Source of the DNA: Chitinophagaceae bacterium
Lineage (GTDB): Bacteria; Bacteroidota; Bacteroidia; Chitinophagales; Chitinophagaceae
Reading direction: 5' to 3'
Length of the DNA stretch: 10,205 nucleotides
Assembly: GCA_019454915.1 (NCBI GenBank)
Contig: JACFNM010000131.1
Span: 1 to 10,205 of the forward strand
A program made the translations under genes and the position numbers. A model generated the notes under the pieces. That model was not told where the DNA came from and did not search any database. It worked only from the letters and a program-made list of their open reading frames with translations. Shown one piece after another: positions 804-8,512 of this stretch. Each line of letters opens with the position of its first letter. The first letter of the stretch is position 1.

Positions 804-1382
804 ATGCCAACGTATATACTAATTTTGCTGATAGGTTTGTCGGCGTTGCTTTTCAAGCCCCTATTGCCACCTGAGGCCATTGTTGAGTCTCCGGAATCCA
901 TCGCAGGTCAGTTATCCGATAAAACAGAAAAGCTGCAATGGCTGACCCTCGATGAAGCTGAAGCTGAAATGGCGCTTCAAAAAAAAGACATTATCATTGA
1001 TCTATATACCGATTGGTGCGGCTGGTGCAAGGTCATGGATAAGAACACCTACACCCACAGACAGGTGATTGACTATGTACAGCATAATTTTTACCCGGTG
1101 AAAATAAATGCTGAAACGAGAGATATGATAACGTGGAGAGGAAGACAATTCAAATATAATGACGCTTACCGGGTAAATGATTTTGCCATTCTGCTGACCG
1201 GTGGCCGACTGTCCTACCCTTCCACGGTTATTATACCCGCCGATGGTTCCACTCCCCAGGCAGTCCCCGGCTACCTTAAGCCGGCGGATATGGAGCTTAT
1301 CCTCAAATACTTTGGAGAAGGACACTTCGGCAAAATCCCCTTCCAGGACTACCAGAAGAACTTCAAACAGACATGGAAATAA
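804..1382 (+). CDS. Membrane-anchored thioredoxin-fold protein with CGWC motif
   Basis: A 192-residue protein of the thioredoxin superfamily, closest in layout to the thioredoxin_7/DUF255-like group. Residues 4-22 are hydrophobic and end in LLPP, which suggests an uncleaved N-terminal anchor or a signal peptide facing the periplasm. The active site is WCGWCK with redox cysteines C72 and C75, preceded by the strand IIIDLYTD. The cis-proline expected opposite the active site is present in LSYPSTVI (P139). This fold and dithiol pair fit a protein that reduces or isomerises periplasmic disulfides, but the substrate is unknown. The CGWC spacer differs from the CGPC of general thioredoxins and is usual in the thioredoxin_7 type. 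No Shine-Dalgarno sequence precedes the ATG at 804. The gene lies 123 nt after lolA, and its transcript probably ends at the hairpin at 1463-1492. Confidence 0.85.
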   Translation: MPTYILILLIGLSALLFKPLLPPEAIVESPESIAGQLSDKTEKLQWLTLDEAEAEMALQKKDIIIDLYTDWCGWCKVMDKNTYTHRQVIDYVQHNFYPVKINAETRDMITWRGRQFKYNDAYRVNDFAILLTGGRLSYPSTVIIPADGSTPQAVPGYLKPADMELILKYFGEGHFGKIPFQDYQKNFKQTWK

Positions 1383-1433
1383 ATTAAATTCATGAATACA
1401 AAATATGAAAGCCAGTCATAACGTTATATGTCT

Positions 1434-1457
1434 GGTTTTTCATAGGATATTGGATTT
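1434..1457 (+). repeat. Conserved 24-nt box, copy 1
   Basis: Core TTTTTCATAGGATATTGG, preceded by GG and followed by ATTT. All 24 nt are identical to copy 2 (1629-1652) and to copy 4 on the minus strand (7560-7583). It starts 51 nt after the stop codon of the thioredoxin-fold gene and is separated from the following terminator stem by the 5-nt spacer AAAGC. It would therefore lie in the 3' untranslated part of that mRNA. Its function is unknown, and it does not match the Bacteroidota promoter consensus. Confidence 0.85.
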
Positions 1458-1462
1458 AAAGC

Positions 1463-1492
1463 GGGGCAGGATGTCTATCCAGCCCTTTTTTT
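1463..1492 (+). terminator. Intrinsic terminator hairpin of box module 1
   Basis: Two 4-bp stems are joined by an A-A mismatch: GGGC (1464-1467) pairs with GCCC (1482-1485), and GGAT (1469-1472) pairs with ATCC (1477-1480). The loop is GTCT, and seven T residues follow (1486-1492). It most likely ends the transcript of the thioredoxin-fold gene, whose stop codon is at 1380-1382. Confidence 0.8.
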
Positions 1493-1628
1493 ATTGGTTT
1501 TTTCTCCTACACTCTCCGTTTTATCTCCTAATCATAACTTCCAGAGGTGTTTTTCCTGGCTTTTCGGGTATTCTAAAAAACTTTAATCTTCTATGCAACC
1601 TTTACGGCGAACCTGTTGTCTATTATTT

Positions 1629-1652
1629 GGTTTTTCATAGGATATTGGATTT
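1629..1652 (+). repeat. Conserved 24-nt box, copy 2
   Basis: An exact copy of the box at 1434-1457, 195 nt downstream in the same direction. The 6-nt spacer AGAAAC leads to the hairpin. No protein gene lies between copy 1 and copy 2, so any RNA ending here would be a non-coding transcript or read-through from the first terminator. Confidence 0.85.
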
Positions 1653-1658
1653 AGAAAC

Positions 1659-1684
1659 GGGGCCGGATGTCTATCCAGCCCTTT
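1659..1684 (+). terminator. Intrinsic terminator-like hairpin of box module 2
   Basis: The architecture is the same as in module 1: GGGC (1660-1663) with GCCC (1678-1681), GGAT (1665-1668) with ATCC (1673-1676), and loop GTCT. A C-A mismatch replaces the A-A mismatch. The T-run is short and interrupted (TTTG), so termination may be weaker than at copy 1. Confidence 0.65.
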
Positions 1685-1849
1685 GTTATATTTATTGAGC
1701 CCACCAATAAGCACCACCCTTTTGATAAGTTTCGCTATCAGCAATTAATACAAAATCTATTTATCACATATCTTAATCTCAGTAAATGAGGGAGATAAAA
1801 AATTTATTTCTGAACCGCTCACATATACTAAAAAGAGCTTATTTTCGAC

Positions 1850-1870
1850 TTTTCATAGGATAAGGTTTAA
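1850..1870 (+). repeat. Divergent box, copy 3
   Basis: TTTTCATAGGATA is identical to the other copies. The 3' half then diverges, reading AGGTTTAA instead of TTGGATTT. It points the same way as copies 1 and 2 and is again followed by a strong terminator hairpin, but after a longer spacer of about 24 nt. The spacer contains two near-repeats of GGTTTAA (1864-1870 and 1879-1885). Confidence 0.65.
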
Positions 1871-1894
1871 TGGTTAACGGTTTAAAGATTAGTA

Positions 1895-1930
1895 CCCCTC
1901 CCCCGACTTTTCGGGAGGGGGTTTCTTTTT
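1895..1930 (+). terminator. Strong intrinsic terminator upstream of dprA
   Basis: CCCCTCCC (1895-1902) pairs with GGGAGGGG (1913-1920) to make an 8-bp stem with a 10-nt loop, followed by GTTTCTTTTT. The stem sequence is unrelated to those of modules 1 and 2, although the same box precedes it. It lies about 60 nt before the dprA start and isolates dprA from upstream transcription. Confidence 0.88.
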
Positions 1931-1989
1931 AGCGGAGATATAATCCGTGAAACGATATTCCTCAGTCAGAAAAACATCATCACCGTACT

Positions 1990-3090
1990 ATGTCAAATGA
2001 CCTTTTTTATCAGATAGCGCTAACCATGATCCCGTTCATAGGGGATGTGCATGCACGGGAACTAATGCAACACTTTGGAGATGCCGAAAAGGTATTTTCC
2101 GCAAAAAAATCCACACTCAACCGCATACCCGGAATCGGTACCATTCGCTCGGAAAATATTAAATCTTTTAACGATTTCAAACGCGTAGAAAAGGAGATTG
2201 ATTTTATTGAGCGGTACAAAATCCAGGTACTTCAGTTCACGGAAACCAACTACCCAAAACGGTTAAGCCATTGTTATGATGCCCCTGTTTTACTTTACTA
2301 CAAGGGGAATGCGGACTTAAATTCCTCCAAAATCCTGTCGGTAATCGGCACCCGGAACCCCACTGATTATGGAAAGGAAATGGTGGAAAACCTCATCAGG
2401 GATTTGGCAAAACACGACGTGGTGATATGCAGCGGGCTTGCCTACGGCATAGACACGCACGCTCATAAAGCCGCCTTAAAAAATAGTCTGTCCACCGTTG
2501 GCGTCCTGGCTCACGGTTTGGATCGTATTTATCCGCCGGCAAATAAATCTTTAGCCAAAGAAATGACAGAACAGGGTGGTTTATTAACTGATTTCATCTC
2601 CGGCACTAAACCCGATAAGCAAAATTTCCCGAAACGAAACCGGATTGTGGCCGGTATGTCCGATGCCACGCTGGTAATAGAGACTCAGATGAATGGCGGC
2701 AGCATGATAACCGCAGAGCTGGCTAACAGCTATAACAGAGAGGTATTTGCTCTGCCCGGAAAAATTACAGATACTAAAAGTACTGGATGCAACTACCTAA
2801 TCGGCAACAATAAAGCGGCATTAATCACCGGCGCGGACGACATCCTGAACATGATGAACTGGCAAAACACACCCGCGAAGAAAAGAGTAATCCAAAGAGA
2901 ATTATTTGTTGACCTTACGGAAGAAGAAAGGTTAATCCTGAGCATCATTACCGAAAAAGAAGCCGTTTCGATTGATGAAATGATACCACTCAGTCAACTG
3001 AACAGCGGCGCCATAGCTGCCGCTATCCTGAGCCTTGAATTGGAGGGGCTCATCACCACCCTTCCGGGAAAAATTTACCGGCTCAGTTAA
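1990..3090 (+). CDS. dprA: DNA-processing protein DprA (Smf)
   Basis: A 366-residue cytoplasmic protein that binds incoming single-stranded DNA and loads RecA during natural transformation. The layout is complete. An N-terminal helix-hairpin-helix/SAM-like part (about 10-60, with IPGIG at 46-50) is followed by the Rossmann-like DprA core (about 80-290) and a C-terminal winged helix (about 308-366, ending GLITTLPGKIYRLS). Core signatures are visible: VIGTRNPTDYG (118-128), CSGLAYGIDTHAHKAAL (147-163), FPKRNRIVAGMS (213-224), NGGSMITA (235-242) and ALPGKITDTKSTGCN (254-268). The length is normal for Bacteroidota. The ATG at 1990 starts the conserved N-terminus; no Shine-Dalgarno sequence precedes it. 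The gene sits between a strong terminator (1895-1930) and guaB (76 nt downstream, with its own promoter), so it is probably transcribed alone. No other competence gene is in the window. Confidence 0.96.
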   Translation: MSNDLFYQIALTMIPFIGDVHARELMQHFGDAEKVFSAKKSTLNRIPGIGTIRSENIKSFNDFKRVEKEIDFIERYKIQVLQFTETNYPKRLSHCYDAPVLLYYKGNADLNSSKILSVIGTRNPTDYGKEMVENLIRDLAKHDVVICSGLAYGIDTHAHKAALKNSLSTVGVLAHGLDRIYPPANKSLAKEMTEQGGLLTDFISGTKPDKQNFPKRNRIVAGMSDATLVIETQMNGGSMITAELANSYNREVFALPGKITDTKSTGCNYLIGNNKAALITGADDILNMMNWQNTPAKKRVIQRELFVDLTEEERLILSIITEKEAVSIDEMIPLSQLNSGAIAAAILSLELEGLITTLPGKIYRLS

Positions 3091-3130
3091 CAATTGCAGG
3101 ATGCAGGCTGCTCCGCCCGCAGGAATAAAA

Positions 3131-3163
3131 TTTGGTTGCTATTTATCCGCTACCCTATCTTTG
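3131..3163 (+). promoter_or_regulatory. Bacteroidota-type promoter directly in front of guaB
   Basis: TTTG (3131-3134) and TATCTTTG (3156-3163) are 21 nt apart. The second matches TAnnTTTG exactly. Only three bases (CAC) separate the -7 box from the guaB ATG at 3167, so the RNA would begin at or within a few bases of the start codon. An alternative -35-like TTG lies at 3136-3138. Confidence 0.6.
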
Positions 3164-3166
3164 CAC

Positions 3167-4660
3167 ATGGCAACAACTATCAATTCCGCTAGAGGAAAAT
3201 CTACTCCAAAATTTTTCGGTGAAGGCTTAACCTTCGATGATGTTTTACTGGTACCGGCCTATTCAGAAGTCCTTCCCCGGGAAGCAGATATCAGCACAAG
3301 GCTCACAAAAAATATCACGTTGAATATTCCGCTGCTTTCGGCGGCAATGGATACCGTTACTGAAGCAGATTTGGCTATTGCCCTCGCAAGAGAAGGCGGC
3401 TTGGGTATTCTTCATAAAAACATGACGATTGAGCGACAGGTTGAGCAGGTTCGAAAAGTAAAACGCAGCGAAAGCGGTTTGATCTTAGACCCTATCACTC
3501 TGCGTGAAGACGCCACCATCGGCGACGCTTTAAAACTCATGCATGAAAATAAGATAGGCGGTATTCCCATCATTGATATCAATAGAAAACTGGTAGGCAT
3601 CCTCACCAACCGGGATCTACGTTTCGAAACTACCCTGAAAAAAAAGGTAAGTGAGGTAATGACAAAAGAAAGATTAATAACCGCTCCCGAAGGAACCGAC
3701 CTGGTGAAAGCAAAAAAGATTCTTAGTCAATATAAAATTGAGAAACTACCGGTAGTAAATAAAAAAGGTGAATTGACAGGACTTATTACCTATCGCGACA
3801 TTTTACAATTGCAAAGTCATCCCAATGCGGTAAAGGATAATTTTGGACGTCTATTAACGGGAGCCGCTTTGGGTATTACAGCCGATTTAATGGACAGGGC
3901 CTACGCTTTACAACAGATTGGCGTAGATATTGTTTGTCTTGACAGCGCCCACGGACATAGCGCCAAAGTAATCGAATCGCTTAAGAGGGTAAAAAAAGAA
4001 TTTAAACAACTTCCCGTTATCGCCGGCAACGTGGGTACGGCAAGTGGAGCGAAAGCACTTGCTGAGGCGGGTGCAGACGCTGTTAAAGTGGGTATCGGGC
4101 CCGGCTCCATTTGCACCACCCGGATTGTAGCAGGCGCAGGAGTACCTCAGATTACCGCCATTATGGAAGCCGCCTCCGTACTCCATAAGATGAACGTACC
4201 TTTGATAGCTGACGGAGGTATTCGCTATACAGGAGACCTGGTAAAAGCCCTGGCCGCTGGCGCTAATGTAGTGATGATGGGGAGCATCTTCGCAGGAACA
4301 GAAGAAAGTCCCGGAGAAACGATTATTTACGAAGGCAGGAAATTCAAGCAATACCGGGGTATGGGTTCTTTAGGGGCCATGGGCCAGGGAAGCGGCGACC
4401 GTTACTTCCAGGATGTGGAAGCCGATGTTAAGAAATACGTACCGGAAGGAATTGAAGGACGTGTGGCATTTAAAGGAAATCTGAGTGAAATCGTATATCA
4501 ATATACCGGTGGATTACGGTCGGGGATGGGCTATTGCGGTGCGCCAAATATTGCTGCCCTACAAAAGGCGCAATTTATCCGTATAACCAATGCCGGCATG
4601 AATGAGAGTCATGCCCATGATATCGAAATAACCCGGGAAGCTCCTAACTATACAAGATAA
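3167..4660 (+). CDS. guaB: IMP dehydrogenase
   Basis: A 497-residue cytoplasmic enzyme that oxidises IMP to XMP with NAD+, the committed step of GMP synthesis. The N-terminus has the family start [17 protein letters not shown] (21-37). Two CBS domains occupy about residues 105-217, inserted in the (beta/alpha)8 barrel; in this family they bind purine nucleotides and tune activity. The catalytic loop GPGSICTTR (311-319) carries the nucleophile C316. The IMP-binding [12 protein letters not shown] (346-357), the [14 protein letters not shown] block (371-384) and the flap [20 protein letters not shown] with the Arg-Tyr pair R412/Y413 are all intact. The ATG at 3167 is preferred over an in-frame ATG at 3035 because the earlier one lies inside dprA and adds 44 residues foreign to the family. 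There is no Shine-Dalgarno sequence; a promoter box ends three bases upstream, suggesting a very short or absent leader. Confidence 0.97.
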
Positions 4661-4810
4661 ATGACTTAAGCTTCGCATGAATCTTTTTCCAGGATAACCG
4701 GAATTTTTGTTGAATGATATTTGAAAATCCCCGTGGGAAATAATTATTGCCGAGATTTGAAGCAGGGAAGATTTCTTCTTAGCTTCAATCATTCATGCAT
4801 AATTCAGCCA

Positions 4811-7519
4811 ATGATAGTCATTAAAAAAATTGCGGCGGTCTCTGTCTTACTTTGCCTGCTGTTTAGCATTTCATCACCCGCGCAAACCATCCCATCGCCA
4901 CGGGAACATTTCGGATTCAATATCGGCGATGATTATATGTTAGCCAATTACACCCAGGTGGAGTCCTATTTCAATAAAATAGCCGAAGCATCCGACCGGG
5001 TCAAATTACAACCTATTGGTAAAACAGAAGAGGGACGAAATCAGTATATCGTTATTGTGTCTTCCCCGGATAATTTATCTCATCTTTCAAAATATCAGGA
5101 CATCTCTACGAAATTAGCGAGAGCGGAAGGCATCCCGGAAGATGAAGCGCGACAATTGTCATTGGAAGGTAAAGCGGTAGTTTGGATTGACGGCGGGCTA
5201 CATGCCACGGAAACCGTGGGCAGCCACCAGTTAATCGAAACACTCTATCAGTTAGTCAGTAGAAATGATGCCGAAACACAACGAATATTAAATGATGTCA
5301 TTATCCTGCTCGCCCAGGTGAACCCCGATGGACAGGAGTTAGTGGCAAACTGGTATATGCGCGAAGCCGAACCGGCAAAACGAAAAATGGATATACCCCG
5401 TTTGTATCAGAAGTATATCGGGCATGATAATAACCGGGACTTCTACATCAATAATATGAGTGAGAGTAAAAATATCTCACGCGTGTTATATGTGGACTGG
5501 ATACCTCAAATTTTATATAACCATCATCAGTCGGGCCCGGCCGGCACCATATTAGCGGGTCCTCCCTATCGCGATCCTTTCAACTTCGCTTATGACCCGC
5601 TGGTCGTTACCGGTATTGATGCTTTGGGTGTAGCCATGATTAACCGGCTCAATGCAGAAAACAAGCCCGGATTTACCAGAATGAACGGCTCGGTGTACTC
5701 TACCTGGTGGAATGGCGGTTTGCGTACAACTGCCTATTTCCACAATATCATTGGCTTACTGACGGAGATAACCGGCAACCCTGCTCCATCCGAAATTCCG
5801 CTGGTTCCGAACAGACTAACCCCCAATAGCGCCACACCCAATCCGGTCATTCCTCAAAAATGGCATTTCAGAAACGCAATTGATTATTCCGTATCGCTCA
5901 ATTACGCGATTTTAGATTACGCTTCTCGAAATAAAGATCACCTGCTTTACAACATTTATAAGATGGGCAGAAACAGCATTGAGCGCGGAAGTAAGGATCA
6001 CTGGACGCTCACCCCCAGGCTTATTGATTCGGTTAAATCTGTTGCGCAAAGAAACCCAAAAGCGACTAATAATGCTATACCGGCGGCTTATTTTGATTCA
6101 GTTTATCAAAATCCCGCTTTCCGTGATCCGAGAGGCTATGTCATTCCTTCCAATCAAAAGGATTTTTGGACAGCAACCCAGTTTGTTAATGCACTCATTA
6201 GCTCCGGTATCCGCGTAGAAAAAGCAACGGCTGCCTTTTCTGTCGAAGGGAAGGATTATCCGGCAGGTTCTTTTATCATTAAAACTGACCAGGCTTTTCG
6301 TCCTCATGTCCTGGATATGTTCGAACCACAGGATCATCCCAACGACTTTCAATATCCCGGAGGGCCTCCCATACGTCCCTACGACGCTGCCGGATGGACC
6401 TTAGCCTACCAAATGGGAATTCAGTTTGACCGGATACTAAACGATTTCCGGGGGCCTTTTATCACGATACCCTATGGGGAACTACAAACAGCTATACAGG
6501 GCGTAAAACTAACCCCTTCCCGTGCCGGGTACCTTATCAGCCCGGAAGAAAATGAGGCTTTTGTTGCGGTCAATGAATTACTGAAAAAAGGTATCGAGGT
6601 ATATCGTGTGTCGAAAAATGAGTCTTCGATTAAGGCGGGTACTTTTTATATACCGGCAAAGGGTTATGAACTTTTGAAAAATCACTCACTAAAAAAGGGG
6701 TTGACTGTTCATCCGTCCGGAAAAGTGCCCACATCTAAAACAAAAATATCACCGGCAAGAATCGCTCTTTTCGACCAATATGGCGGAGCCATCGCATCCG
6801 GCTGGGCACGGTGGCTGCTGGAGAGGTTTGGCTATTCATTTTCGGTCATTTATCCGGGAGAAATAGATAATGGGGGATTGAACAAAAAATATGATATTCT
6901 GCTTTTTGTTGATACACAGATGCCCACCCGAACGACAGAACTAAAAAGGACTCAACCGAAATCAGAAGAAATTCCGGCTGAGTTCCGCAACCGGCTCGGG
7001 TACATCACTATAGAAAAAACCGTTCCCCAAATCAAACAGTTCCTTGAACAGGGAGGTGTTGTATTAACGATTGGGAATGCCACATCGCTCGCTTACCTAC
7101 TGGAACTTCCCGTACAAAATGCTTTAACTACCAGAAGTGCCGCCGGCGAGTCAAAGTCTTTGTCGCAGAATGATTACTTCATACCGGGCAGTATCCTGAA
7201 TGCAATCATTGATATTAATCAACCGGAGAACCGGGGTATGGACACTACGGCTGATATGGTATTCAATCAATCAAATGTGTTCCGGCTAAATCCGGACGCT
7301 GTATCAGGAGGACTGCGCCCGCTGGCCTGGTTTGGTGAAGATAAGCCCTTAAGAAGCGGATGGGCCTGGGGACAAGGATATCTGAAGGAGGGCATTATTG
7401 CCTTTTCTATGCCTGTGGGCAAAGGCAAATTTTACGCATGTGCCACTCAAATCACCTTTCGTGCCCAACCATACGGAACATTTAGAATGCTTTTCAATCA
7501 ACTATACCGGTCGCTTTAA
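4811..7519 (+). CDS. Large secreted M14-family zinc metallopeptidase
   Basis: A 902-residue exported protein. Residues 1-24 form a signal peptide (MIVIKK, a long hydrophobic core, then SSPAQ). The M14 carboxypeptidase domain covers about residues 40-370. The zinc motif HATE (H131, E134) lies in WIDGGLHATETVGSHQ. NPDG (171-174), a substrate-binding DNNRD (206-210), a candidate third zinc ligand H238 or H239 in YNHHQSG, and the catalytic glutamate E319 in LLTEITGNP follow in the expected order. The remaining 500 residues are an extension without a signature I can name. The part near 650-745 (RIALFDQYGGA, then a hydrophobic YDILLFVD strand) resembles an alpha/beta glutamine-amidotransferase-like fold, which is a weak inference. 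The substrate may be peptides or peptidoglycan fragments. The ATG at 4811 is chosen over an in-frame ATG at 4721 because it starts the signal peptide. The gene lies 150 nt after guaB and ends 11 nt before a terminator hairpin. Confidence 0.9.
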   Translation: MIVIKKIAAVSVLLCLLFSISSPAQTIPSPREHFGFNIGDDYMLANYTQVESYFNKIAEASDRVKLQPIGKTEEGRNQYIVIVSSPDNLSHLSKYQDISTKLARAEGIPEDEARQLSLEGKAVVWIDGGLHATETVGSHQLIETLYQLVSRNDAETQRILNDVIILLAQVNPDGQELVANWYMREAEPAKRKMDIPRLYQKYIGHDNNRDFYINNMSESKNISRVLYVDWIPQILYNHHQSGPAGTILAGPPYRDPFNFAYDPLVVTGIDALGVAMINRLNAENKPGFTRMNGSVYSTWWNGGLRTTAYFHNIIGLLTEITGNPAPSEIPLVPNRLTPNSATPNPVIPQKWHFRNAIDYSVSLNYAILDYASRNKDHLLYNIYKMGRNSIERGSKDHWTLTPRLIDSVKSVAQRNPKATNNAIPAAYFDSVYQNPAFRDPRGYVIPSNQKDFWTATQFVNALISSGIRVEKATAAFSVEGKDYPAGSFIIKTDQAFRPHVLDMFEPQDHPNDFQYPGGPPIRPYDAAGWTLAYQMGIQFDRILNDFRGPFITIPYGELQTAIQGVKLTPSRAGYLISPEENEAFVAVNELLKKGIEVYRVSKNESSIKAGTFYIPAKGYELLKNHSLKKGLTVHPSGKVPTSKTKISPARIALFDQYGGAIASGWARWLLERFGYSFSVIYPGEIDNGGLNKKYDILLFVDTQMPTRTTELKRTQPKSEEIPAEFRNRLGYITIEKTVPQIKQFLEQGGVVLTIGNATSLAYLLELPVQNALTTRSAAGESKSLSQNDYFIPGSILNAIIDINQPENRGMDTTADMVFNQSNVFRLNPDAVSGGLRPLAWFGEDKPLRSGWAWGQGYLKEGIIAFSMPVGKGKFYACATQITFRAQPYGTFRMLFNQLYRSL

Positions 7520-7523
7520 AGGC

Positions 7524-7558
7524 AAAAAAGGGGCCGCATAAAAATGCACCCCGTTTTT
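7524..7558. terminator. Bidirectional terminator between convergent genes
   Basis: GGGG (7530-7533) pairs with CCCC (7549-7552) and GCAT (7536-7539) with ATGC (7544-7547), around the loop AAAA and an asymmetric CC/A internal mismatch. A run of five T follows on the plus strand (7554-7558), and a run of six A precedes it (7524-7529), giving T6 on the minus strand. It can end the M14 peptidase transcript from one side and the two-component transcript from the other. Its stem geometry matches modules 1 and 2. Confidence 0.85.
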
Positions 7559-7559
7559 A

Positions 7560-7583
7560 AAATCCAATATCCTATGAAAAACC
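7560..7583 (-). repeat. Conserved 24-nt box, copy 4 (inverted)
   Basis: Read on the minus strand it is identical over all 24 nt to the copies at 1434-1457 and 1629-1652. The 7-nt spacer TAAAAAC leads to the hairpin at 7530-7552. In this orientation it lies in the 3' untranslated region of the two-component operon, about 180 nt past the response-regulator stop codon. Confidence 0.85.
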
Positions 7584-7762
7584 TGTTTCAAATTTATAAT
7601 CTCAAACCGGTAATCGGAAACGTTTGCATTCCTTTTTAGTATTCAGTAAGATTTGCCGTGTATTTTGCATGAAATCAACTATTATTTTCAAGTCCGAAAC
7701 AAAAAAAATTAGCAATCGTATTACAATTCCTTTTAACCTGTCACCCATTCCTTTGAAATACA

Positions 7763-8512
7763 TCAAAATCTGGAAAAAAGTTCCATGAATTCCTGCTTCC
7801 TGCTACGCGATACGGTTATGCTATCCCCATTATCCATAACAAGATGCCCACCTTCTCCCCGGATGAATTTTTTTACATGGTTGATGCCGATAAGAAAGGA
7901 GCTGTGAACCCGGAAAAACTCCGGACCACTCAGTACTTCGTCCAATTCTTTCAACACCCTGGATACCGTAATTTTTTTGTTATCGGACAGGATAACAGTG
8001 GTATAATTACTCTCCGCCTTGCAGTACACAATATCCCTGGTTTCCACAAAGATCAGTCCCTCGTTCGTTGTCAGCGCTATACGATTAGGAGCCGATTTAG
8101 AAGACCGGTTAAGCTTTTGCATTAAAAGCGAATATTGATCCTCACTAATATTTATCCTCTTTTCTGCTATACGCTGGATAGTAGTTTTCAAATCATCGGG
8201 ATCTACCGGCTTTAAGAGGTAGTTGATAGCCGCAAATTTGAAAGCCTTAATGGCAAACTGATCATGAGCCGTACAAAATACAATCTCAAACGAATGGTTT
8301 CTAACCTGCTCCAGCATATCAAAACCATTCATTTCCGGCATATTGATGTCCAGAAAAACAATCTCAGGATCAAGCCGGTTAATCGCGTCAATGCCTTCCT
8401 TTGCCGAGTTACATAAGGCGAGGATTTCCACCTCCGGACAATAGGTTTTCAGTAACCATTCCATCATTTCCAGGGAATTGATTTCATCGTCTACTAAAAT
8501 ACATTTTAACAT
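7763..8512 (-). CDS. LytTR-family response regulator
   Basis: A 249-residue cytoplasmic transcription factor of the LytR/AlgR type. The receiver domain (about 1-118) has the acidic pair D8/D9 in LVDDE, the phosphoacceptor D55 in VFLDINMPEMNG, T81 and K101 (LLKPVD), so all switch residues are present. A short linker leads to the LytTR DNA-binding domain (about 144-246), with the family blocks IVYCKAESNYT and FFRVHSSFLIGINHV. The ATG at 8512 is chosen because it begins the receiver fold directly (MLKCILVDDE). An upstream in-frame ATG at 8608 would add 32 residues inside the kinase gene. It starts 10 nt after the kinase stop codon, so the two are one operon and almost certainly one signalling pair. 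No Shine-Dalgarno sequence is visible in the 10-nt gap. The target genes cannot be read from this window. Confidence 0.95.
   Translation of the reverse strand: MLKCILVDDEINSLEMMEWLLKTYCPEVEILALCNSAKEGIDAINRLDPEIVFLDINMPEMNGFDMLEQVRNHSFEIVFCTAHDQFAIKAFKFAAINYLLKPVDPDDLKTTIQRIAEKRINISEDQYSLLMQKLNRSSKSAPNRIALTTNEGLIFVETRDIVYCKAESNYTTVILSDNKKITVSRVLKELDEVLSGPEFFRVHSSFLIGINHVKKFIRGEGGHLVMDNGDSITVSRSRKQEFMELFSRF

Follow-up and report, generated by a model that had tools for sequence, protein, structure and literature searches.

The window analysed here, a stretch of 10,205 nucleotides (nt) from a Chitinophagaceae bacterium (contig JACFNM010000131.1; source genome of 4.64 Mb in 802 contigs), carries a 24-nt box in three identical copies and a divergent fourth, and comparison across genomes indicates that these boxes are very probably the 5' ends of stand-alone small RNA (sRNA) genes of about 60 nt, members of a widespread multicopy family. 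The explanation that best accounts for the observations as a whole, to which we give a probability of about 0.7, is a paralogous family of trans-acting sRNAs of about 60 nt, resembling the FopS RNAs of Bacteroides, in Chitinophagaceae without Hfq. Whether these RNAs also work as FopS does, by pairing at start codons and with an RRM protein as partner, we judge, from sequence comparison, to be an even question. We found no description of this RNA family in the open-access literature, subscription journals and preprints lying outside that search.

The box and the unit behind it

The 24-mer GGTTTTTCATAGGATATTGGATTT stands at 1434-1457 and 1629-1652 on the plus strand and at 7583-7560 on the minus strand, where a sequence-only reading of the window had placed it, and the divergent copy at 1850 has 13 nt exactly in common with it (TTTTCATAGGATA). 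This is far above chance: a search of the window for the 17-mer core with up to three mismatches gives 4 matches against 0.11 expected, and none of 200 shuffles reaches four. As had also been noticed, a GC-rich hairpin lies 3' of all four boxes; good T-runs follow at 1486-1492 and 7529-7524 and a weak one (TTTGTT) at 1682-1687. The units at 1434 and 1629 are 92% identical over their whole length.

Copies from other genomes show the same order of elements, namely a promoter, GG, the near-invariant unstructured segment GGUUUUUCAUAGGAUAUUGGAUUU, an A-rich spacer, a covarying hairpin and a T-run. It is because the promoter motif, the GG, the hairpin and the T-run all keep register with the box that we read the box as a transcript start and the unit as an RNA gene of about 60 nt. 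For the alignment, a copy had to have at least 70 nt of sequence ahead of the box and 90 nt behind it, and copies whose upstream region matched that of a retained copy at 62% identity or above were then removed, which left 143 of 227 (one locus without an sRNA unit, L186, is still counted among the 227). In the 143 copies aligned by the box, A-rich bases come after it, then a stem that is first G-rich and then C-rich, and a T-run at +52 to +58; the similarity fades outside the span from promoter to terminator, and the flanks differ between paralogous copies. The invariance of the box itself is partly a matter of ascertainment, as its positions 0-16 (0-19 in named records) were fixed by the search pattern, and a mismatch search of the genus gives a fairer view. 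That search, at exactly two mismatches to the 17-mer, returned 22 matches, near the background set by a reversed control (19 at up to two mismatches); most look like chance, and the two that do not (L291 in G004 and L294 in G005) are orthologous units with TTTTCTAAGGATATTGG in place of CATAGG and an intact hairpin, that is, natural variants of the putative seed.

A filter for hairpin and T-run was passed by 220 of 228 exact copies, the eight failures comprising six with a hairpin and no run of four T, one truncated copy (L055) and L186. The box is therefore, in nearly every case, part of such a unit, which speaks against the earlier suggestion that it is the target of an sRNA. Within the hairpin, 99.0% of cells are paired; two-sided changes affect 20 cells, where shuffles have 5.6, and pairing falls to 57% or less when the partner is shifted along. 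Both the count of two-sided cells and the covariation score exceed all 500 shuffles; two-sided change is seen in just two of the six pairs tested, a number that 178 of the 500 shuffles also reach. Most loops are U-rich tetraloops. The sequence-only reading had contrasted a conserved box with variable hairpin arms; this needs correction in that the hairpin does not vary freely, since the inner four pairs and the U-rich tetraloop are kept with compensatory changes. A pairing inside the box proposed by RNAalifold (columns 6-9 with 18-21) shows no variation at all, and we make no claim for it, although our covariance model R1 includes it.

Upstream of the box, the profile of the 143 non-redundant copies shows a -7 element, TAtcTTTg, at -15 to -8, and behind it a pyrimidine at -4; 96-97% of copies have GG at -3/-2. 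The motif TAnnTT[TC][GA], standing about 6 nt ahead of the GG, starts at -17 to -14 in 73 of the 143 (shuffles: mean 2.4, maximum 8), and the strict form TAnnTTTG is found in 30 (shuffle mean 0.4). A TTG precedes the -7 motif by 19, 20 or 21 nt in 17, 13 and 5 instances (35 in total), the top spacings of all, and TTG with TAnnTTTG is the form described for Bacteroidota promoters (PMC7366714). The earlier statement that the box does not match this pattern is correct for the box itself, but the minus-strand copy has such a promoter directly upstream (TAAATTTG, 7596-7589). We also observed an A-rich block at -57 to -53 of the box, about 20 nt above the -33 region, whose likeness to an UP element suggests strong promoters. 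The two tandem boxes at 1434 and 1629 (copies A and B) have no TAnnTTTG motif, and other motifs recur at this locus; one of them, TGCAAC..GTCT, lies upstream of 15 of the 227 copies, chiefly copy B of the genus. By inference from these motifs, CGTTA with an AATAT-rich element (copy A) and TGCAAC with GTCTA (copy B) would be promoters of extracytoplasmic function (ECF) sigma factors. The features of the window are as follows.

1401..1433 (+): predicted promoter of sRNA copy A, with CGTTA at 1422-1426 and an AATAT-rich element near 1402-1407; CGTTATA/CGTTAGA and the upstream element recur across the genus; presumably ECF-like.
1434..1492 (+): sRNA copy A (type I), 5' segment 1434-1457, hairpin 1463-1485, T-run 1486-1492; 5' end placed from the conserved GG.
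1594..1622 (+): predicted promoter of sRNA copy B, TGCAAC 1594-1599 and GTCTA 1618-1622; presumably ECF-like.
1629..1687 (+): sRNA copy B (type I), 5' segment 1629-1652, hairpin 1659-1681, weak T-run.
1840..1847 (+): -7-like element TATTTTCG of the type II unit; a TAnnTTCG-like sequence recurs at the same place in the genus.
1850..1930 (+): type II sRNA unit, core TTTTCATAGGATA, then AAGGTTTAATGGTTAACGG, a strong hairpin at about 1900-1921 and a T-rich end; its 5' end is uncertain because the -7-like element is closer to the box than in type I.
7589..7596 (-): -7 promoter element TAAATTTG of the minus-strand copy, matching the upstream profile of the aligned copies, 6 nt before the GG.
7524..7583 (-): minus-strand sRNA (type I), 5' segment 7583-7560, hairpin 7552-7530, T-run 7529-7524.
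804..1382 (+): thioredoxin-like gene, conserved upstream neighbour (PF13899, synteny), with a LolA-like gene before it.
1990..3090 (+): dprA, conserved downstream neighbour (PF02481, synteny).
7763..8512 (-): LytTR response regulator, upstream of the minus-strand copy (PF00072 and PF04397).

Distribution and types

A search of the genome and its relatives, which the sequence-only reading had proposed, finds the box to be multicopy. The genome of the window holds six exact 17-mers and the divergent sibling copy, and each of 12 of 12 genus genomes holds 4-11 exact copies, so that there are several paralogs per genome, as in FopS. Within the family, the exact 17-mer is found in 186 of 294 genomes and in 67 of 101 genera (reversed control 0/294). 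In a sample of the order, with one mismatch allowed, 15 of the 18 genomes from the family are positive, and 5 of 131 genomes outside the family have one single-mismatch match each, against 2/131 for the reversed control. The 21-mer was found in at least 118 stretches; among the 80 matches listed, the labels are mostly Chitinophagaceae, Chitinophagales, Bacteroidetes or Bacteroidota, with some Sphingobacteriales and one Bacteroidales, and the genera include Niastella, Flavihumibacter, Ferruginibacter, Terrimonas, Puia, Filimonas, Cnuella and Foetidibacter. A record of Agriterribacter humi YJ03 carries the box as well. At E 0.01 the covariance model has a match in 40 of 247 genomes of the phylum, 8 of them in the family; the other 32 score 36.3 bits or less, and of nine of these that we inspected as candidate homologues outside the family, eight resemble ordinary terminators downstream of genes and the ninth (L145) a chance match.

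The divergent copy represents a second type (type II, TTTTCATAGGATAAGGTTTAATGGTTAACGG), which stands near the tandem pair in 9 of the 12 genus genomes, with pattern matches there in two more, and is also found in other genera (L313, L314, L317, L318, L328). A third type (TTTTTCATAGGATATGGTTA followed by a hairpin) occurs in genera without the 17-mer (L143, L305, L310, L324, L326, L327, L333); one genome, G116, has 14 matches of the shared 13-mer, and the three inspected are all type III. The core common to types I-III is UUUUCAUAGGAUA, the second half of the segment being changed in types II and III. In the set of genomes without the 17-mer, the 13-mer is present in 20 of 40, many of its matches being no sRNA units. 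Some fall on start codons of secreted proteins, three of them in G012; ATGAAAA alone explains these, as none of the G012 matches inspected (three of four) is an sRNA.

The units also occur on contigs that IMG/VR labels as viral, a label that we took as given: type I on L426 and L429 and type II on L436-L444, mostly with hairpin and T-rich end. On two of these contigs a type II unit lies close behind a tRNA gene, 3 nt from its 3' end in one case (L440:572-595, minus strand; tRNA-Met, with tRNA-Trp following) and 6 nt in the other (L442:5212-5235, plus strand; tRNA-Ala), and with a tRNA directly upstream the 5' end of these units may come from tRNA processing. FopS, too, is reported from a phage (PMC11697453).

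Partners and targets

Bacteroidota lack classical sRNA chaperones, according to PMC11697453, and Hfq (PF17209) was above cut-off in 0 of 294 family genomes, with 3 weak matches below it, while 5 of 14 control genomes were positive, which argues against a class of Hfq-dependent sRNAs. RRM_1, in turn, was found in 91 of 98 genomes. The numbers of boxes and of RRM proteins correlate (Spearman 0.65; 0.49 after removal of genome size), and the 17-mer is seen in 60 of the 75 genomes that have two or more RRM proteins, in 3 of the 23 that have no more than one and in none of the 7 that lack them. The link to RRM proteins suggested by the sequence-only reading is thus plausible, co-occurrence being what speaks for it.

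In the explanation that we prefer, transcription would start at the GG, and the box would serve as a seed for pairing with mRNAs. The start codon region is the most likely site, as the complement of the box reads UAUCCU-AUG-AAAAACC. Such pairing would repress translation, as it does for FopS in Bacteroides, a protein of the RbpB kind (RRM-1) would bind the RNA, and different sigma factors could feed different signals into one regulon. Sites in mRNAs were sought because the complement of the core, TATCCT-ATG-AAAAACC in DNA, contains AUGAAAAAC. The pattern TATCCTATGRRRRD has 117 matches in the 12 genomes: 82 exact type I boxes, 11 at or near type II sites (9 of them inspected) and 24 others. Predicted pairing is better than in shuffles at starts (z -2.4), and nearly as much so inside genes (-1.85) and upstream of them (-1.75).

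Several results weigh against a FopS-like family of this kind. TATCCT stands before ATG once among 945 starts, against 0.59 expected; the 24 matches of TATCCTATGRRRRD that are not sRNAs compare with 41 for a permuted pattern in the same 12 genomes; pairing at starts is no more specific than in gene interiors; and the starts of 26 PF13715 genes, which are of the SusC-like kind, show no better pairing than 901 other starts (p 0.35). In addition, TAnnTT[TC][GA] is missing at its place in 70 of the 143 copies, part of which have other conserved motifs, the co-occurrence of box and RRM proteins is uncorrected for relatedness, and every unit scored misses the FopS gathering threshold of 56 bits (best 30.4), for which reason we call these RNAs FopS-like and not FopS. 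The target tests are of a kind that would miss short or gapped pairing at few genes. At L186 (minus strand, about 3867-3890), the start codon of a lipoprotein gene (MKNSLVTILFVAFFITGC...) lies inside a stretch exactly complementary to 21 nt of the box, without sRNA hairpin or promoter; it is possibly a target and possibly chance, and as a single case we set it aside as evidence.

The same negative target results would fit an RNA that acts as a protein decoy, its unstructured segment titrating an RNA-binding protein, probably of the RRM-1 type, with the copies under several promoters determining how much of that protein is free. Conservation of the whole segment of about 20 nt and the co-occurrence with RRM proteins are also in keeping with such a role. 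However, the related FopS acts by pairing with mRNA (PMC11697453), and types II and III alter the second half of the segment and keep the core, so we consider a decoy unlikely and prefer the FopS-like sRNAs.

Genomic context

Most copies are intergenic: only 34 of the 227 overlap a stop-to-stop open reading frame (ORF) of at least 150 codons, compared with 1790 of 2270 random positions. Of 126 non-redundant copies whose flanks are long enough, 83 lie behind a gene on their own strand and 34 behind one on the opposite strand, the other 9 overlapping an ORF; where the gene is on the same strand, the box stands a median of 161 nt from its stop. The sequence-only reading had offered, among other roles, an element of 3' untranslated regions (3'-UTRs), and a module that protects or ends the mRNA of the upstream gene, with promoter-like motifs as secondary features, would agree with the same-strand majority, with a downstream gene on the opposite strand in 71 of 117 copies and with the functional terminator. 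We find it improbable as the main role: 34 of the 126 copies lie behind an opposite-strand gene, copy B has a terminator, not a gene, ahead of it, the promoter motif is in register with the box, and a terminator alone leaves the conserved box unexplained. The same-strand majority nevertheless leaves room for a second role of the sRNA gene as terminator of the gene upstream.

Copies A and B and the type II unit lie between the thioredoxin-like gene and dprA, and both neighbours of the tandem pair are found in 10 of the 12 genus genomes and one of the two in the other 2; at this locus the units are thus inherited vertically. LolA and thioredoxin homologues are also upstream of boxes at three further loci (L230, L244, L247). 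The minus-strand copy lies behind the LytTR regulator and a histidine kinase, and a LytTR gene adjoins copies in four other genus genomes (L033, L085, L091, L097). A mobile repeat or insertion-sequence end spreading with its terminator, another of the earlier suggestions, could account for the many copies, the tandem copies and those on IMG/VR viral contigs, but it is very improbable given that the window locus keeps its neighbours across the 12 genus genomes, that flanks differ between paralogs and that the shared profile fades outside the RNA unit, which is all the copies have in common.

Comparison with known RNAs

Several known sRNAs share some traits with the FopS-like units. Rfp18 of Flavobacterium, compared here by its description, is likewise an sRNA conserved across a Bacteroidota genus, but it is strongly structured and pairs by its third stem-loop (PMC9723704). 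GibS of Bacteroides thetaiotaomicron, also known to us by description, has a conserved single-stranded 5' seed that is reported to pair around start codons, without Hfq, but is a single gene with two seeds (PMC7366714). The cyanobacterial sRNAs NsiR1 and cyano_het_sRNA (RF02399, RF02596) are short and end in a terminator, and NsiR1 occurs in tandem copies; their matches are weak, however, with 20.4 bits against a threshold of 35.7 for cyano_het_sRNA in the window and 20.4 against 39 for the NsiR1 model at the type II unit L313. Weak Rfam matches to MicC, SorY, rliI, RcsR1 and others were treated as chance.

The nearest named family, when the units are compared with Rfam as the sequence-only reading had advised, is FopS (RF04319, with GUGUUUUUCAUgGUAUUAGAUUUAAGGUUAAuAAAaGA as the printed consensus of its 5' end), at scores below the Rfam threshold. 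Its best match is the type III unit L324 (30.4 and 29.5 bits; E 0.014 and 0.021 in a short stretch, 0.58 and 0.85 in a search of eight loci), followed by a type II unit (L035, 24.8 bits), the window (21.4 bits at 1432-1495, 19.3 bits at 1847-1931) and L001 (20.3 bits). Over 1400-1960 of the window FopS comes first by bits, but three other families have lower E-values, L001 is likewise outranked on E-value, and FopS is absent from the matches over the whole window at E 5. When 5' segments are aligned to FopS, the type I and type II segments of the window and a type II segment from L044 beat all 5000 dinucleotide shuffles, with p 0.0008 for L001 (type I), 0.0014 for L313 (type II) and 0.035 for type III; as the choice of FopS followed the Rfam match, none of these tests is blind.

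The FopS family of B. thetaiotaomicron comprises 14 RNAs of about 65-70 nt, which repress translation of SusC at its start codon, a repression that the RRM-1 protein RbpB antagonises (PMC11697453). The two groups have in common a multicopy nature, a similar length, promoters of the TAnnTTTG type at part of the Chitinophagaceae copies, an unstructured conserved 5' segment before a terminator hairpin, and a phylum with RRM proteins and without Hfq; their 5' segments share GUUUUUCAU, and the alignment extends beyond it. They differ in the core (CAUAGGAUA in Chitinophagaceae, CAUgGUAUU in FopS of Bacteroidaceae), and the Chitinophagaceae RNAs have at least three 3' types, ECF-like promoters at some copies and no SusC target signal among the starts examined. 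More tentatively, and with odds somewhat below even, UUUUCAUAGGAUA may mark a branch, with at least three 3' types in Chitinophagaceae, of a Bacteroidota superfamily of sRNAs that bind start codons and to which FopS also belongs; these RNAs would do without Hfq beside expanded RRM proteins, answer to various sigma factors so that several stresses converge on one seed, and also be borne by phages, on two contigs directly behind tRNA genes.

In any case, a segment of about 20 nt resembling the FopS seed of Bacteroides has been retained, at several genes in each genome, over much of a family. If our reading is right, it would offer a natural case of one seed under different promoters, an idea that the FopS authors raise for paralogous sRNAs generally and do not report for FopS itself; and it would extend a FopS-like system from gut Bacteroidaceae to environmental Chitinophagaceae, making its age and its partners testable.

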